From NCBI GenBank assembly GCA_903877135.1, contig CAIRCN010000027.1, positions 1 through 45,985 of the forward strand: a stretch of DNA of 45,985 nt. The letters are read 5' to 3'. Origin of the DNA: an uncultured Opitutia bacterium. GTDB taxonomy: Bacteria > Verrucomicrobiota > Verrucomicrobiia > Opitutales > Opitutaceae. The position numbers were made by a program, and so were the translations under genes. Numbering within the stretch: position 1 is the stretch's first letter; each line of letters starts with the position of its first letter. Below the pieces are notes generated by a model that made no database searches, was not told the DNA's origin, and worked only from the letters and a program-made list of their open reading frames with translations. Below, one piece after another: positions 25,081 through 26,747 of the stretch.

Positions 25081-25451
25081 TCATTCCTTCAGCGCCTGCT
25101 TCGGCACCCGGCGCACGGTCACGAATTTCGCCCGAAACAGCTCGGAGAGCAGTTCGCGGGTCTCGGGCGTCAAGCGCTGCACCAGGTCGTCCAGCGCGGG
25201 CAACGGCACCTCTTTCTCCTCTTCCTGCTCGGCAACCGCCGGAGCCTCCACGACCGGCGCCCCCAGTTCGGGCGGGCCGCCCAGCCCGGCCAGAAACACC
25301 GTTTCGGCCGCCTCGTCGGGCCAGACATTTGCCCCGTTCTCCATGACCACTTCGGCCTCCTTCGCCGGAATGCCCGGTCTCTCGACTCTTGGCTCTCGCC
25401 CCTCGACCTGAAGTGAGGCACTCAGCCGCGCTTCCAGCCGCTCAATCAGTC
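25081..25451 (-). CDS. dnaX: dnaX -1-frame extension (tau-like C-terminus)
   Basis: From the A run at 25453-25462 the -1 frame continues without stop to 25081, about 121 codons. The encoded tail has a linker rich in Glu, Pro and Ala, then an ordered end ([19 protein letters not shown]...VPKQALKE). The frame has no credible start of its own. Joined by -1 slippage at A AAA AAG (25452-25458), it would give a protein of about 503 residues resembling tau. Alternatives are transcriptional slippage adding one A, or a sequencing or assembly error in the homopolymer that split a single gene. Confidence 0.75.
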
Positions 25452-26594
25452 CTTTTTTTTTTCGCCGTCGGCCGCGGCCGGAGCCTCGTCGGCGAGCGCG
25501 GCGAGTTCCTTGATCAGGCTGTCGATCGCCCGCGCACGGCTGGCATCGACGGCCTTCAGCAGCGTCACCTCGAAATTGATCTTCTCGGCGAGGCCCAGCT
25601 TCACCGCGCCCTCGCCTTCGCGCAGCCCGTCGAGCAGCCGCGTGAGCTGCTCGGTCGTCATCGGCTCGCCCAGTGCGGCGCTGCGGCCGCCCTGCGCGAT
25701 GGCGTCGAGCAACACCGTGCGCACCTGCGCCTGAAGGTCGGACAGCAGGCGGACGAGGTCGCGCCCATTGGAGTCGCAATCGTCGACGATCGCAACGATC
25801 CTCCGATCGTCGCCCGCAGCGAGCGCCGCCGCCAGCTCGGCGATTTTCTCGGCCGAGACCAGCCCATAGACGTCGAGCACGTCGGGCTCGGTGATTTCGC
25901 CGCCACAAAACGAGATCATCTGATCGAGCACCGACTGTGCGTCGCGCATGCCGCCGTCGGCCATGCGGGCGATGCTGGCGAGTGCGGCAGGGGTGATTTT
26001 GATTTTCTCGGAGTCGGCGATCTTCTGCAGCCGCTCCACGATCAGCTCGGGCGGAATCGGCTTCAGGTCGAAGCGCTGGCAGCGCGAGATGATCGTCGGC
26101 AGCACCTTTTGCGGATCGGTGGTGGCGAAGACAAATTTTACGTGTGACGGCGGCTCCTCAAGCGTCTTGAGCAGCGCGTTGAACGCCGCCGCCGAAAGCA
26201 TGTGCACCTCGTCGATGATGTAGATTTTGAACTTACCCTGCGCCGGCGCGTATTGCACGGTGTCGCGCAGGTCGCGCACCTGGTCCACACCGTTATTCGA
26301 GGCGCCGTCAATTTCGATTACGTCGAGGTGCGATCCGTTGGCGATGGCTAGGCAGGCGGGATCATTGACATCGAAGTCCGCCTTCGGACCACCGGTGCAG
26401 TTGAGCGCCTTGGCGAAGATGCGCGCCGTCGAGGTCTTGCCCGTGCCGCGCGGTCCCACAAAGAGATAGGCGTGGGCGATCCGGCCGCGGCTGATGGCGT
26501 TGCGCAGCGTCCGCACGACATGGTCCTGACCGACGACGTCGTCAAACGTCTGTGGCCGCCACTTGCGCGCGATGACTTGGTAGGTGCCCGACAC
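25446..26594 (-). CDS. dnaX: DNA polymerase III gamma/tau subunit, zero-frame (short) product
   Basis: Clamp-loader ATPase of 382 residues. Walker A is [10 protein letters not shown] near residue 47. DEVHM is the Walker B, and [18 protein letters not shown] carries the SRC arginine finger. The zinc module is altered: at the positions of the four E. coli cysteines (64, 73, 76, 79) it has Cys, Asp, Asp, Cys. The frame ends right after an A10 run: GAA AAA AAA AAG GAC TGA. The -1 frame is open for about 120 more codons (25081-25451). The short product covers domains I-III, equal to gamma. The GTG at 26594 is chosen because it precedes the family start ([14 protein letters not shown]). The next candidate start upstream lies inside the SRP RNA. 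The gene follows the SRP RNA gene, a common order in bacteria. Confidence 0.93.
25452..25462 (-). promoter_or_regulatory. dnaX slippery site (A10-G)
   Basis: Ten A residues followed by GG on the minus strand. In the zero frame the heptamer A AAA AAG, identical to the E. coli dnaX slippery sequence, is followed one codon later by TGA. An A10 run can also promote transcriptional slippage, as known for Thermus dnaX. Confidence 0.75.
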
Positions 26595-26647
26595 TGGGGC
26601 TAGACCAAATCCAAACCCAGCAAGCGCAAATCCAAAATAAAAAATAA

Positions 26648-26747
26648 GTGGCCAGGCACTCCACGGCACTGGGAGAACGTCGTTGCCGTTGCTACCTTCC
26701 GGTCCTGGCGGAGTTCACGCGCCTGCCCATGCATGGCACCTGGCCGA
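26648..26747 (-). ncRNA. ffs: Signal recognition particle RNA, small bacterial type (4.5S)
   Basis: On the minus strand the conserved apical domain reads GTGAACTCCGCCAGGACCGG followed by AAGGTAGCAACGGCAA, containing the GGAA-type tetraloop and the asymmetric Ffh-binding bulge. The 5' end GGCCAGGTGC (26745-26736) pairs with the 3' end GTGCCTGGCC (26659-26650), closing the rod. A TTATTTTTTATTTT stretch follows and can end transcription. It lies directly upstream of dnaX, about 54 bases from its start, an arrangement also found in Bacillus. Length about 100 nt. Exact ends are estimates. Confidence 0.93.

Follow-up and report, generated by a model that had tools for sequence, protein, structure and literature searches.

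The dnaX gene of an uncultured Opitutia bacterium very probably makes both clamp-loader proteins by RNA polymerase slippage on a run of 10 adenines (A10). The window analyzed here is the whole 45,985-nucleotide stretch that carries this gene, and its zero frame encodes the shorter protein (gamma), with the C-terminal extension of the longer protein (tau) in the −1 frame. RNA polymerase would slip on the A10 run and generate transcripts with varied numbers of A's. Unslipped A10 transcripts, and those shifted into the +1 frame, would meet a stop within a few codons and yield gamma (∼382 aa); an additional A, or any other change in length equivalent to a −1 shift, would carry the reading on into the tail and yield tau (∼504 aa). 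The slip in transcription, the making of both proteins, and the protein ratio are what we infer from sequence comparisons. The preliminary description of this DNA had left open both Thermus-like transcriptional slippage and an Escherichia coli-like −1 ribosomal shift at A AAA AAG. We favor the former over the latter because the run is kept more strictly than the heptamer, offsets of 0, −1, and +1 all occur in the order, both non-tau frames are closed, no ribosomal stimulators were found, and the genome has two tRNA-Lys species.

The gene is on the minus strand, and its putative GTG start at 26594 is that of the preliminary description; the frame is open up to a GTG at 26669. The zero frame (25446..26594, minus strand) specifies the 382-aa gamma form and ends GAA AAA AAA AAG GAC TGA, with the A10 run at 25453..25462 and the terminal TGA at 25446..25448. 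A TGA in the +1 frame follows at 25442..25444, so that transcripts shifted the other way would also end gamma sized, and the two non-tau frames are stopped 1 and 2 codons after the run. The −1 frame runs from 25452 to a stop at 25081 to 25083 (25081..25452, minus strand), a tau extension of 123 codons plus stop that, by arithmetic, would give a 504-aa product with one more A. Our reading agrees with the earlier one of a short gamma frame of 382 codons, a tau extension in the −1 frame at the A10 run, and an in-phase A AAA AAG at the site; its “about 121” further codons were counted from the zero-frame stop, and ours from the run.

The zero frame matched the NCBIfam gamma/tau model NF004046 (457.8 bits; cutoff, 400) and the dnaX_nterm model TIGR02397 (428.6 bits; cutoff, 250), as well as the Pfam models PF13177, PF22608, and PF12169 (AAA, lid, and domain III), all above cutoff. 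Domain III (PF12169) covers residues 234 to 360, and the zero frame closes soon after it. One dnaX copy was found in the genome at E values of ≤1e-60, the remaining matches being partial and 31 to 38% identical. A small SRP RNA gene (26647..26745, minus strand; Rfam RF00169, 64.3 bits; gathering threshold, 40) lies a short distance upstream of dnaX in the same orientation, a neighbor outside the mechanism.

The A10 in dnaX is the sole run of at least 10 A's or 10 T's in the 4,228,601-base assembly, in which ten other runs are A9 or T9. We read ten A9 runs elsewhere in the genome, with one frame summary each. Two of these (L344 and L346) lie in or near long open frames, one of them 28 codons short of where a 529-codon open frame ends and the second 2 codons past a stop that precedes a 494-codon open frame.

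To place the window's gene among its relatives, we searched 120 genomes of the same family; 115 matched, 110 were fetched, and 109 loci reached the site (left out were G083, G066, and G106, with matches cut short, G081, and G102; L091 ends before the site). All 109 loci carry an A9 to A12 run at the same place, and, as it is also the only run of 10 or more in the assembly, the A10 at dnaX is beyond chance. In 107 of the 109 loci, an A9 or A10 run is closely followed by a zero-frame stop, with a tail in the −1 frame, the stop being no more than 16 nucleotides from the run in all 107 and at 4 nucleotides in 99. In the other two, L041 (A12) and L047 (A11), tau is in frame 0. Because the loci are related, the counts should not be taken as so many independent events.

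The same survey bears on the homopolymer sequencing error raised in the preliminary description, or an error of assembly, by which the true count would be A11. Homopolymers are error prone, and the A11 and A12 of the two exceptional family loci do restore a frame-0 tau, but the split is common to the other 107 loci and to all 11 of the family's single-contig genomes, which makes a homopolymer error very unlikely indeed. It is also found in all four records of a second collection that bear the name Opitutaceae or Opitutae (L119 to L122; 80 to 85% identical), at least one of them probably a duplicate: L120, which has the window's sequence context after the run, is probably a repeat of family locus L089. 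The proposed comparison with related Opitutaceae therefore turned out in favor of a genuine zero-frame stop, the 107 relatives having no one continuous frame.

The core of the run in the 109 family loci is NNA AAA AAA AA. The codon before it varies (GAA in 85, TCA in 16, CAA in 5, GTA in 2, and TTA in 1, for Glu, Ser, Gln, Val, and Leu) and always ends in A; elsewhere in the same genes, GAA makes up 31% of Glu codons. The base following the run is G in 88 loci and C in 21. The heptamer A AAA AAG is in phase in 86 of the 107 family loci with a −1 tail, the window included, and the other 21 have A AAA AAC (20 loci) or an all-A heptamer (1 locus). The run is longer than the heptamer in 109 of 109 loci and is thus kept more strictly than the heptamer.

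Because of its dN/dS ratios, its conserved last 40 residues, and its matches to single-frame DnaX proteins, we identify the −1 frame as the tau C terminus. The tail is under purifying selection, with dN/dS under 1 in all 14 pairs (0.10 to 0.56; dN above that of gamma, and dS above 1 in several pairs). The C-terminal motif is kept in the family, as are the last 40 residues (25084..25203, minus strand, in the window), and the linker is variable. A profile built from −1 tails matched the C terminus of two DnaX proteins of the order, L212 (8e-13) and L217 (3e-8), each encoded by one uninterrupted dnaX frame without an A-run of 7 or more. Among 90 single-frame DnaX proteins, five of the order matched this profile at E values of <0.01 (L212, L217, and L277 to L279) and none from outside the order fell below an E value of 0.05, so the label “tau” outside the order follows gene position. 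Within the family and order, 24 of 27 frame-0 loci and 13 of 15 +1 loci matched at E values of ≤1, many of them weakly. The strict tail motif LF-x-x-[KR] is present in 97 of 131 −1 tails and is scarce in frame-0 (4 of 27) and +1 (2 of 15) tails, so tail homology in these two classes is based partly on position. The tau tail is expected to bind the polymerase alpha subunit, as in E. coli.

These observations also speak to the reading that the long form has been lost, leaving the tail as a decaying remnant, or that the tail is made as a separate protein. The tail had no match in NCBIfam, one match in Pfam (E = 0.17, with nothing lower), and two in the PDB (E values of 0.077 and 7.4); this and the variable linker would fit a remnant, but the dN/dS ratios and the conserved C-terminal motif count against it, and we regard this reading as highly improbable. 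The ORF listing gives a TTG-start ORF in the −1 frame of the window's dnaX, which is listed only because that frame is, by chance, open a long way upstream. In L012, L015, L016, L030, and L032, the −1 frame opens only 6 to 8 codons ahead of where the zero-frame stop ends, and a separate start ahead of the tail is unlikely.

Closure of the frames around the run favors slippage. In 158 of 169 loci, stops shut both non-tau frames no more than 10 codons from the run, versus 6.8% at random positions in gamma. Among the 107 family loci, 95 have a +1 stop in 5 codons or fewer and 104 in 10 or fewer (tail control, 16% and 27%). Closure of the +1 frame is not required for a −1 ribosomal shift; it may partly follow from conserved tail residues (CTGATTGA context).

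We looked for stimulators of ribosomal frameshifting and found none conserved. Shine-Dalgarno-like words before the heptamer were not enriched (19 of 109 loci versus 7 to 31 at seven control offsets), and no conserved downstream stem-loop was detected in 83 aligned family loci (z = −0.95 at 70 nucleotides and 0.32 at 45 nucleotides), a test weakened by alignment gaps, in which two control stretches inside gamma gave z values of −4.7 and −4.8. The mean fold z over 60 loci was −0.31, versus −0.32 and −0.22 for controls, and the window itself folded no better than its shuffles (z = −0.12). At lax thresholds, the ribosomal frameshift signal RF01090 of Rfam matched at the site with 14.7 bits (gathering threshold, 45; E = 4), which is below threshold and was taken as chance. 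The genome has tRNA-Lys with both CTT and TTT anticodons.

The most informative comparison was with the rest of the order. From 87 genomes, 79 matched, 6 of them of the same family, and we read the other 73 loci; 62 (L265 included) have a run of at least 9 A's, 3 have A7, and 8 have no A-run of 7 or more. Taking the tau frame as the longest frame after the run and counting the 60 loci with an A9 to A13 run and a whole tail (L265 and L248 were left out at contig ends), tau is in frame 0 in 23, in −1 in 23, and in +1 in 14. The loci with +1 tau after an A10 run are L205, L210, L213, L222, L233, L234, L241, L246, L252, L256, L258, L259, L263, and L264. A 100-row tree built from the first 345 gamma residues, with L248 entered as −1, gave at least 12 changes of offset, an approximate figure because the tree was quick and has long branches. 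Sister rows can be one A apart: L243 (A11, frame 0) and L248 (A10, frame −1; tail cut by the contig end) have nearly identical flanks, and L203 (A9, frame 0) is sister to L241 (A10, frame +1).

We consider it likely that dnaX in this order is frame agnostic: slippage would feed all three frames, the DNA frame would have drifted among 0, −1, and +1 at least ∼12 times, and the A-run would be the conserved element. The frame that joins the two halves of this essential replication protein would be free to drift because slippage would yield transcripts in all three frames. On the shorter times within the family, the offset does seem to matter, perhaps through the tau:gamma ratio, since its near constancy (107 of 109) indicates that it is not neutral there. 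The slippage site can also be lost, as L212 and L217 suggest, or it was gained around them.

The offsets weigh on the ribosomal explanation as well, in which tau would be made by −1 frameshifting at A AAA AAG, the gamma route of E. coli with the roles swapped. A +1 offset cannot be served by a −1 ribosomal slip, and the order holds 14 loci with +1 tau. The heptamer is in phase in the window and in most of the family, and reversed cases are treated as seemingly ribosomal in the portions of PMC5009743 drawn on here, which include one Chlorobium candidate with potential stimulators. Against this stand the 21 family loci with A AAA AAC or only A's at the site, the former being much less shifty in E. 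coli according to the same source, and also the run that always exceeds the heptamer, the lack of conserved stimulators, and the two tRNA-Lys species. Ribosomal frameshifting as the route to tau is accordingly improbable in our judgment. A ribosomal contribution is possible because the heptamer is in phase in 86 of the 107 loci, and a combined scheme, in which slippage would be ancestral and the heptamer would serve this family as a further route, overlaps our preferred explanation. It would fit an offset that is constant in the family and varied elsewhere in the order, together with a heptamer retained in most loci, but loci without the heptamer have the same arrangement, no stimulators were found, and the heptamer could persist simply because Lys is often encoded where the run ends; we hold this scheme to be unlikely. 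DNA-level phase variation, in which the A count would differ between cells of a population, could draw on the sister loci that are one or two A's apart. It sits badly with the constant offset in 107 family loci, and both products of the clamp loader are expected to be useful in every cell, as parts of the holoenzyme; this reading is very doubtful. Slippage by RNA polymerase is thus the explanation that we carry forward.

The window's dnaX belongs to a known kind. In the parts of Antonov et al. (2013) consulted, dnaX genes that need recoding for tau are described from 17 genes of 12 genera, all at −1, with poly-A stretches in 12 of the 17 (nine of them A10), and transcriptional realignment is proposed for this GeneTack cluster (PMC3711429). 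Like these genes, the window has two ORFs, a −1 offset in the DNA, a poly-A junction, and a longer form that requires recoding. The data of that study include four Verrucomicrobia genomes, and a relative may already be among its genes. Unlike the 17 genes, all at −1, the window's order has offsets of 0, −1, and +1, and the same source takes differing direction among orthologues as a sign of transcriptional realignment. The +1 dnaX class is absent from the portions of the 2013 report covered here. Our literature search found no title on dnaX of this order, and three-frame drift of dnaX within one order, the +1 class included, was not found in the literature searched, the 2013 supplement on A10 genes being outside its scope.

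In Thermus thermophilus, dnaX undergoes transcriptional slippage on an A9 run, and both non-tau frames are stopped close to it (PMC1088944 and PMC5009743, both as far as consulted), and the latter source relates its two tRNA-Lys species to the use of slippage and ties the shiftiness of E. coli to a sole tRNA-Lys. The window shares with Thermus a run of at least 9 A's, early closure of both non-tau frames, and two tRNA-Lys species. It differs in that the template frame of Thermus is that of tau and slips give gamma, whereas the template frame of the window is that of gamma. Of the 169 loci, 25 have a frame-0 tau, and in 19 of these the other two frames stop in 10 codons or fewer.

In E. coli dnaX, by the accounts consulted, the zero frame gives tau and a −1 shift gives gamma, aided by a Shine-Dalgarno sequence and a stem-loop (PMC3711429 and PMC5009743). 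The window has the same gene, the same heptamer in phase, and, as predicted here, two products. In contrast to E. coli, its zero frame is that of gamma, neither stimulator was found, and its tRNA-Lys is not a sole species. The reversal of the E. coli logic noted in the preliminary description is therefore real, but it is not peculiar to this genome, the type that recodes for tau having been published in 2013 (PMC3711429, in the parts consulted).

A gene caller that keeps to the zero frame would cut tau off such genes, so the long clamp-loader protein is likely absent from the annotations of a large bacterial group. The order amounts to a natural series of one gene and one A-run in three template frames. 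With this series, the weight of the template frame under RNA polymerase slippage and the tau:gamma ratio that a cell needs become testable, and the order gives a clear comparative way of separating transcriptional slippage from ribosomal shifting.

Outside the order, we sampled 40 loci of the phylum, hand-picked for family diversity, of which 39 were readable to the frame end; 16 earlier phylum genomes had been chosen partly for short frames. Eleven of the 40 hand-picked loci have A9 or A10 at codons 379 to 428, with tau in frame 0 in 10 of them and in −1 in L330. Five loci from two further families (L284 to L287 and L291) have A10 and a long frame at −1. Runs of A9 to A10 near the gamma end, with the long frame at 0, were also found in L148, L157, L173, L140, and L179, from records titled Ignavibacteriae, Pyrinomonadaceae, Bacteroidetes, and Desulfobacteraceae; the other two frames stop within 10 codons, a Thermus-like layout in other phyla. 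Two loci, L302 and L306, carry two A9/A10 runs per dnaX, separated by 21 and 26 codons, and at each run stops shut the other two frames in 8 codons or fewer.
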